This document shows, piece after piece, positions 821-16,435 of a stretch of DNA of 38,420 nucleotides. Location: positions 1 to 38,420 of the forward strand of contig JALVQZ010000125.1 in assembly GCA_027036355.1 (NCBI GenBank), written 5' to 3'. The notes beneath the pieces were generated by a model. The model was not told the DNA's origin and did not search any database. It was given only the letters and a program-made list of their open reading frames with translations. Positions within the stretch are counted from its first letter, which is position 1. The number at the start of each line of letters is the position of its first letter. A program made the translations under genes and the position numbers. Origin of the DNA: Acidimicrobiia bacterium (GTDB taxonomy: Bacteria; Actinomycetota; Acidimicrobiia; Spongiisociales; UBA5794).

Positions 821-1248
821 CCAGGAACAGGAACCCGTTCGACGTGCTGTTCCGTGTCCGGGCCATCAAGGAGCGACAAGCTCGCGGCGAGATGGGACGG
901 GCCCGAGCCGACCAGCACGAGGCGTACGCCAGGCTCCAGGAACTCAAGGCGAGCCTCGAGGGAGCGCCGGGCCTTCCCGGGACGCTGTCGGCCGTCCAGT
1001 TGCGGGCCCTCCAGTTGACGGGGATCACGTCCCACGAGCGCCTCCAGGCGGCGGCCGAAGCGCACGAGGAAGCCAGGGCCCTGGTCGAGCACCACACGGC
1101 CAGATGGCGCGCCACGTACGAGGAGCTCGAAGCCGCCGACCGCCTGAAGCAGAAGAAGAAGGAGGCCGCGGCCTTCCGGGCCGTCATCGCCTCGGAACGA
1201 GCGATGGACGACCTGCTGCTGTCGCTCAGATCCCGGAGGTCCCGATGA
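817..1248 (+). CDS. fliJ: FliJ-like flagellar export coiled-coil protein
   Basis: This 143-residue protein lies directly downstream of fliI with an ATGA overlap. FliJ is the central stalk of the export ATPase and also handles export chaperones. The sequence is charged and mostly helical, with few prolines, and opens with NPFDVLFRVRAIKERQARGE, the usual FliJ-like start with a helix of about 30 residues. Long heptad-like stretches follow (EAYARLQELKASLE, EEARALVEHHTARW), and a lysine-rich end segment KQKKKEAAAF precedes the C-terminal helix. Length (usual about 145) and position support FliJ. Sequence conservation in this family is poor, so the call rests largely on context. A longer upstream start at 769 would overlap fliI by 50 bases and is less likely. 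Confidence 0.8.
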   Translation: MTRNRNPFDVLFRVRAIKERQARGEMGRARADQHEAYARLQELKASLEGAPGLPGTLSAVQLRALQLTGITSHERLQAAAEAHEEARALVEHHTARWRATYEELEAADRLKQKKKEAAAFRAVIASERAMDDLLLSLRSRRSR

Positions 1249-1910
1249 CCGGGAACGTCGCCGCCGCCGCCGGCCGGATCGCTGCCATCCGTCGGCGCAT
1301 GGATGCGGTCGCTCCGCCATCGCGGGACTTCCGCAGCGTCCTCGCCTCCGCCGCAGCCGACGGTGGTCCGGCGGGCCCGGTCGCGTCGACCAAGCCATCC
1401 GCGGTCTTCGGCGTTCCGACCGTCGGCATCCTCGGGACCCGCCTCAAGCTCGCCCCCGGGGTGGCCGCCGGCGCGGGGATCGGCGCGATCGCCGACTGGT
1501 CCATGCGGCTGCCGGAGGCCGCACGGCCCTGGATCGGATCGATCCAGGAGGCGGCGAGGGACGCCGGCATCGATCCGCGGATGCTGGCCGCCTTGGTGTG
1601 GACCGAGTCGTCGTTCCGTCCCGACGCGGTCTCCCCGGCCGGCGCCGTGGGCCTGACCCAGCTCATGCCGGCCACCGCCGCCGAGCTCGGTGTCGACCCC
1701 TCCGACCCGGTCCAGAACCTCGAAGGCGGTGCCCGGTACCTGGCCCGGAACCTGGCCGAGTTCGGCCGTCTCGACCTCGCCGCGGCGGCGTACAACGCCG
1801 GCCCGGGTGCGGTTCGGCAGAACGGAGGCCATCCCTACATCGACGAACCCGGCGGCTACGTCGACCGGCTCGTCTCTCGATATCGACGACTTGGAGGTAC
1901 GCACCCGTGA
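1245..1910 (+). CDS. Lytic transglycosylase (SLT domain) within the flagellar operon
   Basis: This is a 221-residue protein whose start overlaps the fliJ stop. The C-terminal half (about residues 95-215) is a goose-type/SLT lysozyme-like domain. The catalytic glutamate is E121 in WTESSFRPDAVS, followed by GAVGLTQLMPATA and AYNAGPGAV, all signature SLT motifs. It should cleave the peptidoglycan glycan strand, most likely to make room for the growing rod, the role played by FlgJ in Gram-negative bacteria. No clear signal peptide is seen. The first 80 residues hold an Ala/Gly/Pro-rich stretch and a hydrophobic segment (about 55-82). Export may therefore be through the flagellar apparatus or by that segment as an anchor. 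The next gene starts within its last codons. Confidence 0.88.
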   Translation: MTGNVAAAAGRIAAIRRRMDAVAPPSRDFRSVLASAAADGGPAGPVASTKPSAVFGVPTVGILGTRLKLAPGVAAGAGIGAIADWSMRLPEAARPWIGSIQEAARDAGIDPRMLAALVWTESSFRPDAVSPAGAVGLTQLMPATAAELGVDPSDPVQNLEGGARYLARNLAEFGRLDLAAAAYNAGPGAVRQNGGHPYIDEPGGYVDRLVSRYRRLGGTHP

Positions 1911-4894: not shown

Positions 4895-5772
4895 TGGCCA
4901 GGAACCGCCGACCACCCGAAGAGGACAATCCGCTGCGGTGGCTCACCACCTACGGCGACGTCGTCACCCTGCTGCTGGCGTTCTTCGTGATGCTGTACGC
5001 CATCTCGAGGGTCGACGAGCAGAAGTTCATGCTCTTCGTCGCCGGCCTCCAGGATCCCTTCGGCAACGAAGCGATCGCCAACGGGCTCCTCGCCCAGGGC
5101 ACCGGGATCGTGGGGGGAGCGTACGGCGACAAGCCCGTCGGCGACCGGGAGGGCTTCGACGGCGACGGTCTGCTCGACGGGCGGCCCGAGGTCGACACGA
5201 AGGTCGCCGCCGACGTGCCGACCGAAGACCAGATCGACGAGGAGGACGTCCGCGACTACCTCACGTCCTTGGAGGACCTGGTGCGGGTGCGCGACGCCGT
5301 CAAGGAGGCGCTTCAGGCCGCGGGGTTCGACGAGAACGTGGACTTCGAACTCGGCGCCCGAGGCCTGGTGATCGCCGTCGCCACCGACGACGTCCTGTTC
5401 GCCAGCGGATCGGCCGCGTTCGGTGCCCAGGGGCGGGAGATCATCGCCGCGATCGCGCCGAGCCTCGACTCCTTCGAGAACCAGATCCTCGTCGAGGGAC
5501 ACACCGACTCGGTGCCCCTGCACGGGCGGGGCGGCTACGACAACTGGAACCTGTCTGCCGATCGCGCCCTGGCGGTCTTGAAACTGCTCGTCGACGAGTA
5601 CGGGATCGATCCGCAGCGGCTGGCTGCCACCGGATACGGCGAGTTCAGACCTCGGGCTTCGAACGAGACGGAGGAAGGCAAAGCGAAGAACCGCAGGGTC
5701 GAGCTGGTCGTCGTTGCCGACGTTGCCCGGCTCCAGGACACCACGAACGGAGGTGATGGCGATGGTGGCTGA
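4894..5772 (+). CDS. motB: Flagellar stator protein MotB
   Basis: MotB anchors the stator to peptidoglycan and carries the ion-binding aspartate. The 292-residue protein has one N-terminal membrane helix (about residues 18-37) with the essential Asp at D22 (YGDVVTLL). A linker of about 110 residues follows, then an OmpA-like peptidoglycan-binding domain (about 170-285) with GHTDSVPL and LSADRALAVLKLL. The polar residues in the helix do not let me decide between H+ and Na+ coupling. The linker holds an acidic, Gly/Asp-rich stretch. The gene is fused to motA and fliL by overlaps. Confidence 0.97.
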   Translation: MARNRRPPEEDNPLRWLTTYGDVVTLLLAFFVMLYAISRVDEQKFMLFVAGLQDPFGNEAIANGLLAQGTGIVGGAYGDKPVGDREGFDGDGLLDGRPEVDTKVAADVPTEDQIDEEDVRDYLTSLEDLVRVRDAVKEALQAAGFDENVDFELGARGLVIAVATDDVLFASGSAAFGAQGREIIAAIAPSLDSFENQILVEGHTDSVPLHGRGGYDNWNLSADRALAVLKLLVDEYGIDPQRLAATGYGEFRPRASNETEEGKAKNRRVELVVVADVARLQDTTNGGDGDGG

Positions 5773-6235
5773 GGTCGCCGAGGCGCCGGCACAAGAAGCG
5801 CCCAAGAAAGGGAAGAAGAAGCTCATCATGATCGTCGTACCGGTCGTGGTGCTCGTCGGGGTCGCCGGCTTCTTCATGTTCGGGAAGGGCGGCGGTGACG
5901 AGACCGCCGTCACGACGACCACCGTCGTCGAGATCGGCTCGGTCATCGAAGGGGAGACGTTGACGGTGAACCTGGCCGATCCCGGCTCACCTCGCTACGC
6001 CCGAGTGACCTTCGCCGTGGTGCTCCCGATGGGCGCCGACTCGGGGATCGTGGGGATGAAGATCGCGCTGCTCAAGGATCGGGCGGTCAGCATCATCTCG
6101 GCGTACACGTCCGACATGCTCCTCGGCGACGGCGGCCTGGATCGCCTCCGAAGCGAGCTGACGGCGGCTGCCGGCGAGATCTGGGACGAGACCGAGGTGA
6201 TGGAGGTCGTGTTGACCGAGGTCCTCGTTCAGTGA
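5762..6235 (+). CDS. fliL: Flagellar basal-body-associated protein FliL
   Basis: FliL surrounds the stator and raises torque. The protein is 157 residues with a short lysine-rich cytoplasmic end (KKGKKK), one membrane helix (about 20-38) and a periplasmic domain. That domain starts with the typical ESLTVNL-like segment GETLTVNLADPGSPRYARV and ends in EVMEVVLTEVLVQ. I prefer the ATG at 5762, which has GGAGG at 5749-5753 with 8 bases of spacing. The ATG at 5756 would leave only 2 bases. It overlaps the motB end by 11 bases. Confidence 0.9.
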   Translation: MVAEVAEAPAQEAPKKGKKKLIMIVVPVVVLVGVAGFFMFGKGGGDETAVTTTTVVEIGSVIEGETLTVNLADPGSPRYARVTFAVVLPMGADSGIVGMKIALLKDRAVSIISAYTSDMLLGDGGLDRLRSELTAAAGEIWDETEVMEVVLTEVLVQ

Positions 6236-6339
6236 GCGGCGGCGTGGGTTCCTCCGAGCCGCGACGGCCGACGGGTCCTTCATCTGGAGGCGTCCCTGCC
6301 GACGGTTGATGGCGTGACACCTTCGACCGGAGGCACTCC

Positions 6340-7272
6340 GTGACCGCAGCACCGACGACCGACACGCCGCTCCGACCGGGCGACCAGGTCACCGTCGCGC
6401 CGTTCGACTTCCGAGCCACCGGCGCGATCGCCAAGGAGCTGGTCCGGCGCCTCGAGCTGCTACACGAGGTCTTCTCCAGGGCGCTCGGCAACGAGCTGTC
6501 CAACGCTCTCCGCTCGCTCGTCCGCATCGAACTGATGTCGGTCGATCAGGTGAGCTACGACGAGTACGTGCGGTCGGCGCCGAACCCGACCGTGCTCTGC
6601 TCCATGGCCACCCCACCGCTGCCCGGTTCGGTACTGATCGAGATGAGCACGCAGATGGCGCTCAACCTCGTCGATCGGCTCCTCGGTGGCAACGGGACCT
6701 CCACGATCGTCCGGCGCCCCACCGCCCTGGAGACGTCCATCATCGAGGACCTGCTGCAGATGTTCGTCGAGCCGGTCCGTCAGACCCTCGAGCCGCTCAT
6801 CGAGATCGAGCCCGCCCTCGGCGGGATCGAGTACAACCCGCACTTCCTGCAGGCCGCCAACCCGTCGGACATGATGACGATCCTGTCGTTCTCCTTGTCG
6901 ATCGTCCAGGGTGTCCGCGCCGAGGGTCTGCTCACCGTCGCGTACCCGCCCGCGGTCATCGATGCGATCACCGAACGGGCCGACGCGGCCGTCGCCGACG
7001 ATCGCCTCCCGGCGTTGGAGGCCGGCATCCCCGATTCCCCCGTCGCCGACCGTCTCGTCGACGCACCGGTGACCCTCAGCATCGAGCTGCGACCGACCAC
7101 GGTCGCCGCCGCCCAGCTCGCCGAACTGCGACCCGGCGACGTGCTCACCCTCGACCACCGGGTCGACGAGGAGGTCGTCGGGCGGGTCGCCGAGATGGAG
7201 ATCCTCCGCGGCCGGATCGGCCGCAACGGCAAGAACCTGGCCCTACAGCTGACACAGTGGAGCGCACGATGA
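6340..7272 (+). CDS. fliM: Flagellar motor switch protein FliM lacking the N-terminal CheY-binding motif
   Basis: FliM is part of the C-ring that sets rotation direction. The 310-residue protein shows the middle domain (APFDFRATGAIAKELVRRLE, SVDQVSYDEYVRS, NPTVLCS, LVDRLLGG) and a C-terminal SpoA domain from about residue 235. Canonical FliM starts with a peptide (LSQxEIDALL) that docks phosphorylated CheY. Here only about 20 unrelated residues precede the middle domain. An in-frame TGA at 6307-6309 shows that no longer start exists. GGAGG at 6329-6333 precedes the GTG by 6 bases. The 104-base gap before it shows only weak promoter-like signals. The stop overlaps the fliN start. Confidence 0.95.
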   Translation: MTAAPTTDTPLRPGDQVTVAPFDFRATGAIAKELVRRLELLHEVFSRALGNELSNALRSLVRIELMSVDQVSYDEYVRSAPNPTVLCSMATPPLPGSVLIEMSTQMALNLVDRLLGGNGTSTIVRRPTALETSIIEDLLQMFVEPVRQTLEPLIEIEPALGGIEYNPHFLQAANPSDMMTILSFSLSIVQGVRAEGLLTVAYPPAVIDAITERADAAVADDRLPALEAGIPDSPVADRLVDAPVTLSIELRPTTVAAAQLAELRPGDVLTLDHRVDEEVVGRVAEMEILRGRIGRNGKNLALQLTQWSAR

Positions 7273-10383: not shown

Positions 10384-11430
10384 ATGAGCGACCGGTCCCA
10401 GGACCGCACCGAGAAGCCGACTCCCCGCAAACGCCGGGAAGCGCGCCGTGAGGGGCGCGTCGCCCGCAGCCAGGAGGTCGGCGTCGCCCTGTCCCTGGTG
10501 GTGCTCGTCGCTTCGGTCCGCTTCCTCTTCCCGCTCGTGGCCCCTCGCCTCCTCGTCGCCGCCAGGGACCTGCTCATCCTCAGTGGGACCGGCCGCATCA
10601 CCCTGGGCGTCCAGGACGCGATCGTCGACATGGTGATCTTCGGACTGCTGCCGGTCCTCGGGCTCGCCACGGTCTTCGGGATCGTCGGCGGCGTGATGCA
10701 GGTCGGGTTCTCCCTGGCGCCCAAGGCCATGAAGCCGAAGCTGTCGAACCTGTCGCCGAAGAAGGGCCTCCAGCAGTTCAAGCCGTCGGTGTTCGGCTGG
10801 AACCTGGTCAAGACGCTCCTCAAGCTGGGGCTCCTCGCCCTGGTGGTCTGGGCGCCGCTCCATGCGGCGCTCTCGGGGCCGCTGGTGCCCTACGGGCTGG
10901 GCAACGCCGTCGGCAATGTGACCGCGATCGCCTGGAAGATCGTCGTGGGAGCCACGGTGTTGGCGGTGGCGATCGCCGGCGCCGACTACGGCGTCACCTG
11001 GTGGCGGACCGAGAAGGAACTCAAGATGACCAAGCAGGAACTCAAGGAGGAGCACAAGACCTCCGAAGGGGACCCGTTGGTGAAACAGCAAAGGAGGCGG
11101 CGTGCAGCCGAGCTGTCGAGGAACCGCATGATCTTCAACGTGGCCTCCGCCGACGTCGTCGTCACGAACCCGACCCATCTCGCGGTCGCGCTCCGCTACG
11201 GGCCGGGAGATCCCGCGCCGAAGGTCGTCGCCAAGGGTGCGGACTCGGTCGCCGCCCGGATCCGGCGGGAGGCGTACCGCCATGGCATCGTCGTGGTCGA
11301 GAACAAACCCATCGCCCGGGCCCTGTTCCGGACCGTCAAGCTCGACCACTTCGTTCCCGCTGCCCTGTTCGAGGCGGTGGCGACGGTCCTCGCCGTCGCC
11401 TACCGGCGCCGGGGGAGGAGGGTCGCGTGA
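10384..11430 (+). CDS. flhB: Flagellar export switch protein FlhB
   Basis: FlhB controls the change from rod/hook to filament export. The 348-residue protein starts with the family's EKPTPRKRREARREGRVARSQE segment (residues 10-31). Four membrane segments lie within about 33-205. The cytoplasmic domain carries the self-cleavage site N262-P263-T264-H265, intact. The basic linker KMTKQELKEEHKTSEGDP is typical. GGAG at 10375-10378 serves as ribosome-binding site. The stop overlaps the flhA start (GTGA). Confidence 0.97.
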   Translation: MSDRSQDRTEKPTPRKRREARREGRVARSQEVGVALSLVVLVASVRFLFPLVAPRLLVAARDLLILSGTGRITLGVQDAIVDMVIFGLLPVLGLATVFGIVGGVMQVGFSLAPKAMKPKLSNLSPKKGLQQFKPSVFGWNLVKTLLKLGLLALVVWAPLHAALSGPLVPYGLGNAVGNVTAIAWKIVVGATVLAVAIAGADYGVTWWRTEKELKMTKQELKEEHKTSEGDPLVKQQRRRRAAELSRNRMIFNVASADVVVTNPTHLAVALRYGPGDPAPKVVAKGADSVAARIRREAYRHGIVVVENKPIARALFRTVKLDHFVPAALFEAVATVLAVAYRRRGRRVA

Positions 11431-13487
11431 AGATCCGCTCCTCGACGATCGTTCCGCTGACGCTGGTCGCCATCGTCCTGTTGATGGTCGTGCCGGTGTC
11501 GCCGCGGGTCCTCGACGTGCTGCTGGCGGCGAACATCACCCTGGCGATCCTGATCATGGTCGGAACGATCTTCCTCAAGGACAGCCTCGACTTCGCCATC
11601 TTCCCGTCGTTGCTGTTGATCACCACGATGGCTCGCCTCGCCTTGAACGTCTCGTCGACCCGGCTCATCCTGCTCAACGGCGACGCCGGCAAGGTCATCG
11701 AGACCTTCGGCAGCTACGTCGTCGGCGGGTCGATCGTGGTGGGGCTCGTCGTGTTCCTGATCCTCATCGTCATCCAGTTCGTCGTCATCACCAACGGCTC
11801 GACGCGGGTCGCCGAGGTGGGGGCCCGGTTCACGTTGGACGCCATGCCGGGCAAGCAGATGGCGATCGACGCCGACCTCGCGTCGGGGCTCATCGACGAG
11901 AACCAGGCCCGTGAGGCCCGCAAGCGCATCGCCGCCGAGGCGGACTTCTACGGTGCGATGGACGGAGCGTCGAAGTTCGTCAAGGGCGACGCCATCGCGT
12001 CGCTCATCATCGTGGCGATCAACCTCATCGGCGGGCTCGCCATCGGGATGGCGTCCCTCGGTCTCTCCTTCGGGGACGCCGTCAACCAGTACGTCCTCCT
12101 GTCGGTCGGTGACGGCCTGGTCTCGCAGATCCCCGCCCTGCTCATCTCGATCAGCACCGGTCTGCTGGTCACCCGGGTCGGAACCGAGACCGACATGGGC
12201 GAACAGATCGGGATCCAGCTCTTCGGCAGCCGGCGGGCGCTCATCTACGCGGCGGTGGCGGTCGCCGGACTCGCCATGCTCCCGGGCTTCCCGAAGCTCC
12301 CCTTCTTCGCCGTCGCCGGCGTGCTGTACCTCGTCGCCGCACGGCGTTCCGACGACGACCACGAGGCGGCCGCCGACGCCGATGACGAGACCCCACGGCT
12401 TTCCCTCGACCCGGAGGAGCCCGAGGCGATCATCGGTGAGATGCGGATCGAGCCGCTCGAGCTGCGCCTGTCCTACGACATCTTGGACCTGATCGACGCG
12501 GCCAAGGGCGGAGATCTCCTCGAACGGGTACGGGCGCTCCGCCACCAGATCGCCCTCGAGCTCGGCATCGTCATGCCCCTCGTCCGTACCCGCGACGACG
12601 CATCGTTGCCACCGTCGACGTACTCGATCGTTCTGCGGGGCACCGAGGTCGGACGGGGTCTCGCTCCCCGCGACCAGATCTTGGCGTTGCCCATCGATGC
12701 CGGCTCGGAGCTGCGCGGGCTGGGCGGCATCGAGACCGTGGAGCCGGTGTTCGGTCTCCCGGCGTTCTGGGTGCCCGAATCGGCGCGTGCCACCGCTGCG
12801 GCCACCGGGGCCACCGTCGTCGATCGCGCCTCGGTGCTGGTGACCCACCTGGCCGAGGTGGTCCGAACCAACGCCCCGTCGCTGCTGTCCCGCCAGGACG
12901 TGCAACGGCTCGTCGAAGGCCTGCGCTTCGAAGAGCCCGTTCTCGCCAACGAGGTGGGGACCGAGTTCCTGCCGCTGAGCCTGCTCCACGAAGTGCTGCG
13001 CGGCCTGCTCGCCGACCGGGTGTCGATCCGGGACCTGAGCCCCATCGTGGAGGCGGTCGCCGCCAAGGCCCACGAGACGAGGAACGTCGAGCAGCTCGTC
13101 GCCGCCGCTCGGGTCGCGGTCGGCCGGGCGATCGTCACCGGCATCGCTCGGGACGGCAAGTTGGGGGTGATCACGTTGGAGCCCGGCCTCGAGGCCGGAC
13201 TGCACGAGTCGATCCGCGACGCGGACGGGACGTCGCTGCTCGCCATCGACGCCAACCGGCTCATCGGTCTGCAGCGGGAGATCGAACGCTGCGCCACCGA
13301 CGCCGCCCGTCAGGACGTCCCTGCCGCCATCGTGTGCGGCTCGGCGCTGCGGGGACCGCTGCAGCGCACGGTCACCTCCATGAGCATCGACCTCGCCGTT
13401 CTCGCCTACCCGGAGCTTCCCCCAGATATCGAACTCATCGCCGTCGGAGTGATCGGAGTGAATGATGCACACCCAGCAGTCGCCTGA
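11427..13487 (+). CDS. flhA: Flagellar export gate protein FlhA
   Basis: FlhA forms the nonameric export-gate ring that uses proton motive force and docks chaperone-substrate complexes. The 686-residue protein has the N-terminal membrane half (about eight segments up to residue 300) with FHIPEP-family segments: FLKDSLDFAIFPSLLLITTMARLALNVSSTRLIL, RFTLDAMPGKQMAIDADL and GDAIASLIIVAINLIGG. An acidic linker (about 308-335) leads to the cytoplasmic domain. GGGAGGAGG just before the GTG is a strong ribosome-binding site. It overlaps the next gene by 26 bases. Confidence 0.98.
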   Translation: MKIRSSTIVPLTLVAIVLLMVVPVSPRVLDVLLAANITLAILIMVGTIFLKDSLDFAIFPSLLLITTMARLALNVSSTRLILLNGDAGKVIETFGSYVVGGSIVVGLVVFLILIVIQFVVITNGSTRVAEVGARFTLDAMPGKQMAIDADLASGLIDENQAREARKRIAAEADFYGAMDGASKFVKGDAIASLIIVAINLIGGLAIGMASLGLSFGDAVNQYVLLSVGDGLVSQIPALLISISTGLLVTRVGTETDMGEQIGIQLFGSRRALIYAAVAVAGLAMLPGFPKLPFFAVAGVLYLVAARRSDDDHEAAADADDETPRLSLDPEEPEAIIGEMRIEPLELRLSYDILDLIDAAKGGDLLERVRALRHQIALELGIVMPLVRTRDDASLPPSTYSIVLRGTEVGRGLAPRDQILALPIDAGSELRGLGGIETVEPVFGLPAFWVPESARATAAATGATVVDRASVLVTHLAEVVRTNAPSLLSRQDVQRLVEGLRFEEPVLANEVGTEFLPLSLLHEVLRGLLADRVSIRDLSPIVEAVAAKAHETRNVEQLVAAARVAVGRAIVTGIARDGKLGVITLEPGLEAGLHESIRDADGTSLLAIDANRLIGLQREIERCATDAARQDVPAAIVCGSALRGPLQRTVTSMSIDLAVLAYPELPPDIELIAVGVIGVNDAHPAVA

Positions 13488-14598
13488 GGACATCGTCGTC
13501 GAGGCCGCGGATCTCGAGACCGCCCTGGCCGAAGTCGCCCAGCGTCTCGGACCCGAGGCCGAGATCGTCGATGCCCAGAAGGTCCACAAGGGAGGCCTCG
13601 GTGGCTTCTTCGCCAAGGAGCTCGTACAGGTCACCGCCCGGGTGCCCGCCGCCATGGCGGGTGTCGCCGGTGCCATCGACGCGCTCGTCGACGTCGCCGA
13701 TGGCGGCGAGGCCGACTTCCGCGAGGTCCTGCGGGAACGGATGATCGACCCGCCGATCGATCCTCCCGTCGACGCCGAGGGATCGGCGGGCCCCGACCCG
13801 CGTCCGGTCGGCCCGATGGCGCAGGCCGCCGCGGCCGCGACCGGAGCCACCGACACGGTCGCTCCGTCCGTGCCGGTCATGATGGTCAGCTCCCCGATCG
13901 ATGCCGACATCGAGCCCGACGCGCCCGCGGCGTGGCTGGCGACCGAGGCCGGAGGCACCGAGACCGCCCACGCGACCGCACCGGTGTGGGGTGCCGCCGA
14001 GTCCGGGCCGCCCGACTGGCGAGCCGACGACGGCGAGGCTCCCGAAGGGATGGGACGGGTCGACTGGAGCGCCACGGCCCTGGCGCGGATCGGCCTCCCG
14101 ACCGAGATCGTGGAAGCCACCAAGGGGCTGGACCCGCGCGACGACCTGGCGTGGGTGGGTGCGATCGCCCGGGCGGTGGCACCGCTGTGCGGTGCGCTGC
14201 CGGACGTTCCGATGCTCATCGTCGGCGCCCACGCCGACCGTCTCGCCGAGCCGCTCGACGTGCCACTGGTCAACCCGCCCGGCATGCCGCCCTACTCGGG
14301 ATCGGTCTGTGCCGTCGTCTCCAACGACCAGCGGGACCTCGACTGGCTGCGCTTCGTCCGGGGCGACCGGAAGCTGCATCTGGTGGTGGGGGAGGACCCG
14401 TGGCGTGAGCTCCTCGTCGACGATCCGCTCGTCGTGTCGTGGTCGGGCGACCGTGGCGTCATCGATGCCATCTATCTCGCCAGCACCTTGGGTGGCTCAC
14501 TCGGATACGGGACGGTCGACGGGTTCGCCTCGGGGATGGTCAGGGCCCGCCCCGTCGATGTCGCCCTCGCGGTGCGCCGTCTCGTCGGGAGGCGATGA
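13462..14598 (+). CDS. FlhF-like protein without a P-loop (pseudo-GTPase)
   Basis: The 378-residue protein occupies the usual flhF place after flhA. Residues about 10-55 (AADLETALAEVAQRLGPEAEIVDAQKV, then GGLGGFFAKELVQV) resemble the FlhF B-domain, which normally contains LGxDAxI. A Pro/Ala/Asp-rich linker (about 85-190) follows. The C-terminal part (about 200-378) resembles the helical N domain plus a Rossmann-like fold. At the place of the Walker A motif (GPTGVGKT in FlhF) it reads VGAHADRLAE, with no GKT/S. DTAG and TKxD motifs are also not evident. I infer an FlhF relative that cannot bind GTP normally. The start is ATG 13462 or 13465 (GGAG at 13455-13458). The stop overlaps the next gene. 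Confidence 0.6.
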   Translation: MMHTQQSPEDIVVEAADLETALAEVAQRLGPEAEIVDAQKVHKGGLGGFFAKELVQVTARVPAAMAGVAGAIDALVDVADGGEADFREVLRERMIDPPIDPPVDAEGSAGPDPRPVGPMAQAAAAATGATDTVAPSVPVMMVSSPIDADIEPDAPAAWLATEAGGTETAHATAPVWGAAESGPPDWRADDGEAPEGMGRVDWSATALARIGLPTEIVEATKGLDPRDDLAWVGAIARAVAPLCGALPDVPMLIVGAHADRLAEPLDVPLVNPPGMPPYSGSVCAVVSNDQRDLDWLRFVRGDRKLHLVVGEDPWRELLVDDPLVVSWSGDRGVIDAIYLASTLGGSLGYGTVDGFASGMVRARPVDVALAVRRLVGRR

Positions 14599-14834
14599 CC
14601 GTGGGGATGCGCCAGATCTCGGCCATCTTGGGTCTGTTCGCGCTCGCCCCGATCGGGTTGATGCTGATCAAGGGTCAGCTGTCGCTTCCCGAGGCGGCGA
14701 CCCGCGCCGGGATCGTTCTGGTCGCGGTGATGGTCGTCACCTGGCTGGGGCGTCTCGGCGTCGCCATCCTCGCTCGCTCGATGGAGGCGGCCGTTCCCCG
14801 ACGCCGGGCCTCCGACGTCGTCGTCGAGGACTGA
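14595..14834 (+). CDS. Small membrane protein of unknown function
   Basis: This is a 79-residue protein whose ATG overlaps the stop of the FlhF-like gene. Two hydrophobic helices are predicted (about residues 7-25 and 34-58), joined by KGQLSLPEAATRA. The second is followed by the basic/acidic tail RRRASDVVVED. I do not recognise a family. It is the last gene of the long + strand flagellar run, so a role in export or membrane assembly is possible but unproven. The coupled start and good codon use make it a probable real gene. Confidence 0.6.
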   Translation: MTVGMRQISAILGLFALAPIGLMLIKGQLSLPEAATRAGIVLVAVMVVTWLGRLGVAILARSMEAAVPRRRASDVVVED

Positions 14835-14840
14835 CCGGCG

Positions 14841-16337
14841 TCACAGATCCTCGAGGACCGCGACGACGGTGGGATCGAATCGCGATCCGGCTTCGTCCTT
14901 GATCCTGGTCAGGGCCTCGGGGGTCGGATCCGGAGCCGAGGACCAGCGATCGAGCGCATCGGCGACGGCGAGGATGCGGGCCTCGAAGGGGATGTCGGTC
15001 CCTTCGGTCCCGTCGGGGAAGCCCGTGCCGTCCCAGTGCTCGTGGTGGCCTGCGATGGTGTCGGCCACGACGTTCCCGGCCGGGATCCGGACGATGTCGG
15101 CTCCCAGCCGCGGATGGGACCGGTAGGCCTCCGACCCGTCGTCGCCTTCCGGGAACCGCTCGTCGGCGGGAACGTGGATCTTGCCGAGATCGTGGAGCCG
15201 GGCGGCGAGGCGGACCGCCGCCAGGCGGCGTCCTTCCAACCCGAGGCGTTGGGCGAGGTCGGCGACGATCCGCTCCACCCGCAGCCCGTGCCCGGGCCCC
15301 GACGGATCGTCCTGTTCCACGACGTCGACGGCCTGGAGCAGGGCTTCGAGCTCGGTGGTGGCGGAGAAGACCCGGGTGAGGCTGTCGGCGCCGACGATGC
15401 GCTCGCCCAGGCTCCCGTCGACGCACGCGGCGAGTCCCCGCTCGGCGAGCTCCCGGACCGTGGCCACGTCGGAGCCGGTCTCCGGCCCGGCGTGGCCCAT
15501 CGCCAGGACGAGCGGCGCCGAACGGTCGGGGGCGAAGGTCGACGCGATCGACGACATCTCGTGTCCCAACGACGCGAACTCGTCGGCGGCGAGGATCTCG
15601 GCGAGGACGGCGAACTCGTTGTCGCCGACCGAGAAGATGTCGGCGCCTCGGATCCGGCAGGCCTGCTGCATCTGGGATCCGAGCCGCCGCTTGAGGAGCT
15701 TGGTGGCTTCGCGTCCCAGGCGCCCCGTCGGCGAGCCGAGGACCTTCACGGCGCCGTAGCGGGGAACGGTCCCGGCTTGACTGAGCGCGGCGAGACGTTC
15801 GGCGAGGGCGGCCGGGCCGGGCAGGTTCGATGCCGGATCCCGGTCGAACACCACCGGCGCCGCGTCGCCGTTGCCGAGTCGTTCGAGACGTTGCGCGTAC
15901 GTTTCGAGCACGTCCTCCTCGGGCGAGCCGTCCTCGACGTGGAGCCGGATCGCCTCTTCGTTGCCTTCGGCCACGATGGCGGTTCCGCCGCACGCCATCA
16001 GCGCCGCCGCCGTCGCTTCGCCGGCGGGATGGGTCAGGACGATGACCGGGATGTCGGTCGTCTCCATGGCGCAGATCTGCGAGACGGCCTCCGGCGGCGC
16101 ATAGCGGGTGGCCACGACGACGGCCGCGGCGGTGCTCTTCGCCTCGTCGTCGTCGACCAGCTCGTAGCCGTAGGCCGCCAGACGGGACCTGAGGGGATCG
16201 GGCGCCCACGGCGAGTAGAGGGTCAGGGTGGGGATCTCGACGGCCGGTTCGGTCTCGGGAGACGCCGGAGCGGATTCGGCCTCTTCGGCCGCGGCGGTCT
16301 CCGGCGGGGCCTCGAGCTCGGTTGCGGATCCTGCCAC
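14841..16337 (-). CDS. HD-GYP domain protein with receiver-like and degenerate GGDEF domains
   Basis: The 498-residue protein starts at a GTG with AAGGAGG 6 bases upstream (16344-16350). Domains: an acidic Ala/Glu-rich tail (1-35); a receiver-like alpha/beta domain (about 38-135) without a clear phosphorylatable Asp; a GGDEF-like domain (about 165-325) in which the signature is VGDNEF (237-242), so diguanylate cyclase activity is doubtful; and a C-terminal HD-GYP domain (about 335-498). The HD-GYP part keeps H350, HDLGK (382-386), HHEHWDG (431-437) and GFP (439-441), so the metal-binding residues are present. HD-GYP enzymes hydrolyse cyclic di-GMP. It lies alone on the - strand, convergent with the preceding + strand operon only 6 bases away. 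The GGDEF-like domain may act as a regulatory module. Confidence 0.85.
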   Translation of the reverse strand: MAGSATELEAPPETAAAEEAESAPASPETEPAVEIPTLTLYSPWAPDPLRSRLAAYGYELVDDDEAKSTAAAVVVATRYAPPEAVSQICAMETTDIPVIVLTHPAGEATAAALMACGGTAIVAEGNEEAIRLHVEDGSPEEDVLETYAQRLERLGNGDAAPVVFDRDPASNLPGPAALAERLAALSQAGTVPRYGAVKVLGSPTGRLGREATKLLKRRLGSQMQQACRIRGADIFSVGDNEFAVLAEILAADEFASLGHEMSSIASTFAPDRSAPLVLAMGHAGPETGSDVATVRELAERGLAACVDGSLGERIVGADSLTRVFSATTELEALLQAVDVVEQDDPSGPGHGLRVERIVADLAQRLGLEGRRLAAVRLAARLHDLGKIHVPADERFPEGDDGSEAYRSHPRLGADIVRIPAGNVVADTIAGHHEHWDGTGFPDGTEGTDIPFEARILAVADALDRWSSAPDPTPEALTRIKDEAGSRFDPTVVAVLEDL

Positions 16338-16435
16338 GGCGCACCTCCTTGTTGCCGACCCGTTGCATCCGTGCAACCCGGCGGATCTGCCGACCCTGTC
16401 GGCGGGAGCCTGGTGCGGTGAAGGTCTCGGTCACG
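16338..16435 (-). other. Hairpin-rich leader of the HD-GYP gene
   Basis: The 98 bases upstream of the GTG hold two perfect small hairpins: GTTGCA-TCCG-TGCAAC (16362-16377) and CCGAC-CCT-GTCGG (16390-16402). A GCCGACAG octamer also lies on the - strand (complement of 16397-16404), but the sequence 11 bases before it (TTCACCGC) is a poor -35. The conserved blocks of the GEMM cyclic di-GMP riboswitch are not visible. The function is unknown. Confidence 0.35.

Follow-up and report, generated by a model that had tools for sequence, protein, structure and literature searches.

Among the described systems closest to the one reported here is FlhF, an SRP-type GTPase that acts as a GTP-dependent homodimer and controls flagellar place and number. 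In Shewanella, the N-terminal FliG-interaction domain (FID) of FlhF, composed of three antiparallel strands and a helix, binds FliG, enables it to engage FliF, and holds off FliM/FliN until FlhG comes into play; binding of the landmark HubP by the NG domain of the same protein does not depend on nucleotide (PMC11236974). Pseudomonas still forms flagella, though misplaced ones, when its FlhF has the B and N domains but no G domain (PMC12713375). A 2023 survey of actinobacterial flagella recorded the later "non-FlgFG" classes as lacking FlhF, and it places the loss of FlgFG in the ancestor shared by Acidimicrobiia, Nitriliruptoria, and Actinomycetia (PMC10746217). Our literature search, limited to papers available without subscription, found no report of a GTPase-less or degenerate FlhF.

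The window analyzed here is the whole of a 38,420-nucleotide contig of an actinobacterial genome assembly. It carries a flagellar cluster comprising fliI, fliJ, flgD, motA, motB, fliL, fliM, fliN, fliO, fliP, fliR, flhB, flhA, and a homologue of flhF, with fliI (positions 1 to 820) cut by the contig edge. Besides, a lytic transglycosylase gene (SLT domain; positions 1104 to 1910, plus strand), the product of which is possibly a flagellum-dedicated peptidoglycan hydrolase, lies between fliJ and a probable fliK, and a gene for an HD-GYP-type protein (positions 14841 to 16376, minus strand) runs antisense in the cluster, with the flhF homologue on one side and flgN on the other. The features around the flhF homologue are as follows.

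10384 to 11430, plus strand: flhB (Bac_export_2, E = 7e-100).
11427 to 13487, plus strand: flhA, the upstream partner in a conserved gene pair (FHIPEP, E = 5e-234).
13462 to 14598, plus strand: GTPase-less FlhF homologue of 378 amino acids, a member of family A (open reading frame; FlhF model match over residues 13 to 65; orthologs 3' of flhA).
13486 to 13644, plus strand: FID, residues 9 to 61, strand-helix-strand-strand (HHalign, AlphaFold, Foldseek, dN/dS).
13645 to 14046, plus strand: variable linker, residues 62 to 195, rich in Ala, Pro, and Glu (71% identity to the sister species).
14047 to 14595, plus strand: conserved C-terminal domain, residues 196 to 378 (97% identity to the sister species; hhalign to family B).
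14215 to 14256, plus strand: former P-loop (G1) position, LIVGAHADRLAEPL, with recognizable flanks and no GKS/T (chain alignment through family B).
14595 to 14834, plus strand: 79-amino-acid protein with hydrophobic stretches, conserved 3' of family A members (no Pfam match).

The open reading frame has exactly the coordinates given in the initial annotation, which had called its product FlhF-like on account of the place after flhA and the N-terminal segment. The last 26 nucleotides of flhA overlap its start, an ATGATG preceded by a GGAG-like stretch, and its stop codon shares an ATGA overlap with the 79-amino-acid open reading frame, which sits in the slot where flhG lies at intact flhF loci. 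The slot after flhA is common to the loci of true FlhFs, in agreement with that assignment.

The N-terminal segment, which includes LGPEAEIVDAQKV at residues 29 to 41, bore out the assignment as well. The NCBIfam FlhF model TIGR03499 matched residues 13 to 65 only (E = 2.3e-6), with a score of 27.8 bits, far under the curated FlhF cut-off of 174.15. The first ~58 residues of family A aligned with their counterparts in intact FlhFs of actinobacteria and Bacillota at an HHalign probability of 98.2% (E = 4e-14), and hmmsearch was reciprocal, the profile of family A finding true FlhFs and vice versa. An AlphaFold model of the segment, built from a two-sequence input, had a mean pLDDT of 78 (about 90 over residues 11 to 40). 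When this model was compared by Foldseek with 350,542 PDB chains, the top five matches all came from 9en1, a crystal structure of the FID of Shewanella FlhF (TM score of 0.62 by query and 0.83 to 0.88 by target; rmsd of 1.1 to 1.9 Å; probability of 1.00), with E-values of about 0.1, unremarkable for a domain of this length. A PDB sequence search with the homologue alone as the query gave no match; with the family A profile, the best match was the FlhF FID at an E-value of 0.52, which is suggestive only. We conclude that residues ~1 to 60 are the FlhF FID. Structural similarity to FlhF, the lack of which had been named in the initial annotation as fatal to its claim, is strong and lies in the N-terminal FID only. 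The fold of this 50-residue domain suggests that the homologue binds FliG.

The GTPase site had been described as lost, with VGAHADRLAE at the P-loop position and the other G motifs missing, and both statements held. VGAHADRLAE occupies residues 254 to 263, and an alignment chain through family B, a second GTPase-less FlhF family, places it at the former P-loop position. GK[ST] was found at this position in none of the 32 family rows, including the FlhF homologue itself. The G1 to G5 motifs, including the P-loop GxxxxGK[ST], were absent from the homologue and the other family rows, and no conserved GKS/T, DTAG, or TKxD motif was found across family A. A Pfam search of the homologue returned no domain at E ≤ 1, SRP54 (PF00448) included, and the same search of 11 homologues returned no domain and no nucleotide-binding match. 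The protein is FlhF-like in having kept the FID, with no SRP-GTPase domain detectable.

An intact FlhF elsewhere in the genome, which would have spoken against this reading, was not found among the SRP-type GTPases of the assembly (completeness, 97.7%); these were FtsY and Ffh only. Both belong to the superfamily of the FlhF NG domain, but they are intact GTPases encoded elsewhere in the genome, carry no FID, and have secretion roles. The initial annotation had also noted that no flhG lies nearby, and a tblastn search of the window and of all loci, with Bacillus FlhG as the query, found none near the gene. The best candidates elsewhere in the genome were rejected, since we read two as Mrp-type (C183 and C187) and two as ParA-type (C104 and C231) proteins. 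At the intact loci of three deep families (f22, f24, and f36), the next gene after flhF is flhG; no family A or B gene is followed by it. One further FlhF (L107, family f33) keeps its P-loop yet has no adjacent flhG in the about 2 kb read downstream, which hints that flhG was lost from the slot earlier than the GTPase.

Homologue searches covered 397 genomes of the phylum and 395 of the class. Where upstream sequence was fetched, flhA was the immediate upstream neighbor of nearly every family A, family B, and FlhF gene; no flhA match was found upstream of L121 and L139. The genes in the post-flhA slot were intact FlhFs, FlhF-like proteins with a P-loop and eroded G3 and G4, family B without a P-loop, and family A. 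In the second of these sorts (L068, L070, L142, L148, L150, L157, L159, L162, and L164), G3 is altered (DTPP or DTPG) or missing, and G4 likewise; judged by their sequences, these P-loop-keeping proteins of other actinobacterial lineages are apparent intermediate stages. Family B (L056, L061, L062, L092, L094 to L097, and L136 to L140) was found in Acidimicrobiia and other classes. It shares with family A the FID, a long linker, the lack of a P-loop, the post-flhA slot, and a neighboring clade in the FlhA tree, but it has nearly the full NG length and recognizable remnants of beta-1 and of the G4/G5 region (LxxT.sP...vPv..ld), which family A lacks. Both families combine the FID and linkage to flhA with the absence of GTP motifs. 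Compared with true FlhF, the homologue has the same FID fold and sequence, the same slot, and the same layout of FID, linker, and C-terminal domain, whereas it lacks G1 to G5, a detectable SRP54 domain, and FlhG, and its C-terminal domain measures about 180 amino acids instead of a full NG domain. The homologue belongs to a distinct GTPase-less family, as had been guessed.

In a quick FlhA tree of 67 sequences, rooted with Bacillus and made without bootstrap, the intact FlhF loci were basal, the P-loop-bearing eroded ones branched off after them, and a single derived clade held both family A and family B (SH-aLRT, 100). One branch set apart all family A rows (support, 100), and the nine family B rows shared a subclade with L093, a locus at which flhA is followed by the gene for a 645-amino-acid protein.

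The C-terminal domain, separated from the FID by a linker of highly variable length among the homologues, keeps invariant residues across family A. It consists of N-domain-like helices, the beta-1 strand with the P-loop remnant, and an unassigned part ending in PVDVALAxR. Family B matched the FlhF NG domain at a probability of 95 to 97%, and none of 100 column-shuffled controls reached its score. The hhalign score of family A against family B was 31.5, compared with a mean of 13.2 and a maximum of 18.1 for column-shuffled controls (0 of 100 as high), that is, about 10 standard deviations over them. When the domain was split, this signal came from the N-domain-like helices together with the beta-1/P-loop region, where none of 60 shuffles scored as high, and the last ~75 residues (~305 to 378) gave no reliable match. 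Since the signal is confined to the first half and the end is unmatched, the profiles support decay of an NG domain as the apparent source of the first half of the C-terminal domain only. When the C-terminal domain of family A was compared directly with the NG domains of FlhF or FtsY/Ffh, nothing rose above the shuffled controls; the proposed profile search against FlhF/SRP families was therefore positive for the FID and negative for the C-terminal domain taken directly. By eye, the C-terminal tail (HLVV ... LGYG ... PVDVALA) aligned well with the terminal part of the FlhF G domain (HLVL ... YLT.GQ.VPEDI.VA), but the match failed against shuffled controls (1 of 60 as high, over 9 columns), and we do not claim it. 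The AlphaFold model of the C-terminal domain from a two-sequence input had a pLDDT of 42, and its Foldseek matches were meaningless. A PDB search with family B returned only weak cyanate hydratase matches, which we rejected as chance.

We consider it probable that the gene is a vertical descendant of flhF in which the SRP-type GTPase has eroded and the FID has been kept for a nucleotide-independent, FliG-binding role. A rather unlikely alternative is a domain swap, in which an unrelated domain replaced a deleted NG domain behind the retained FID; convergence or a lucky alignment would then account for the resemblance to family B ahead of the P-loop. Such a replacement would fit the lack of direct NG similarity in the C-terminal domain and its unmatched final ~75 residues, and L093 offers an example in the same slot, its FID leading into a tail that plainly bears no trace of NG. 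However, it leaves to chance a score that far above the shuffles, placed in just the N-domain and beta-1/P-loop region, and family B, which is clearly NG derived, is the neighbor of family A in the FlhA tree.

The sister-species ortholog (L034, recorded as Acidimicrobiia) is 87% identical and lies in the same slot. Among 60 relatives, a homologue was detected in 11 and FlhA in 12, the twelfth being a 117-residue fragment, so all relatives with a near-complete flhA carry the gene, and no others do. Between the two sister species, dN/dS was 0.087 for the FID, 0.425 for the linker, and 0.037 for the C-terminal domain; for the same species pair, it was 0.041 for FlhA and 0.093 for FlhB. Constraint on the C-terminal domain matches that on FlhA, and the ortholog in the same slot and the strong purifying selection indicate that the FlhF homologue is not a chance open reading frame. 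This very strong selection and the invariant residues are also what would be expected if the C-terminal domain, though remodelled, still actively bound nucleotide through another loop, as a divergent GTPase switch; we think this very improbable, since the family has no conserved GKS/T, DTAG, or TKxD, no nucleotide-binding match in Pfam, and no FlhG partner. A decaying, functionless flhF remnant, which the loss of all catalytic motifs and the hypervariable linker might suggest, is already refuted by the low dN/dS of the C-terminal domain and FID and by intact open reading frames across many genera in strict co-occurrence with flhA.

With the GTP site gone but the FID retained, along with a C-terminal domain under constraint, the vertical descendant of flhF is most simply read as a GTP-free, FlhG-free FliG adaptor. 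Most likely, it is a nucleotide-independent FliG-binding factor for assembly or placement, acting as a scaffold or adaptor. As with Shewanella FlhF, the FID would bind the middle and C-terminal domains of FliG at an early stage of basal-body assembly, stabilizing FliG and escorting FliF-FliG. The protein might be anchored at its site by its long linker and its constrained C-terminal domain, the latter inferred to be nucleotide independent, through GTP-free protein-protein contacts, possibly with a polar protein such as DivIVA. DivIVA is the usual actinobacterial polar landmark; several DivIVA-like proteins are encoded in the genome. Release would proceed through competition by FliM/FliN and not through FlhG-stimulated GTP hydrolysis, because FlhG has been lost as well. 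The finding that the FliG-binding form of Pseudomonas FlhF is the GTP-bound one (PMC12713375) counts against nucleotide-free FliG binding. A FliG_C search of the assembly gave no match, and fliF-fliG-fliH are missing from the window. In the sister genome, fliG (L098, positions 5378 to 6376) lies two genes upstream of fliI in the same cluster and encodes a FliG with all three domains. Since our contig starts inside fliI, the absence of FliG is probably an assembly gap.

Set against the survey's record of classes without FlhF, flhF has been not lost but stripped of its GTPase in Acidimicrobiia at least, and the same may extend to the other two classes of that scheme. Whether a whole flagellated branch of Actinomycetota, Acidimicrobiia and further classes, assembles its flagella by means of an FlhF that has no GTPase and serves as a fixed adaptor for FliG, independent of the FlhF-FlhG GTP/ATP switch, is a proposition for and against which we find the case evenly poised. 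If it is true, the core job of FlhF would be FliG binding, and the nucleotide cycle would be a dispensable layer. The family amounts to a natural separation-of-function experiment, in which the GTP switch and FlhG were discarded, whereas the FID for FliG binding was kept, as was a C-terminal domain under constraint. With a graded series within one phylum, from intact FlhF through eroded G3/G4 to a P-loop that is gone, the question of which FlhF activity is essential becomes directly testable.
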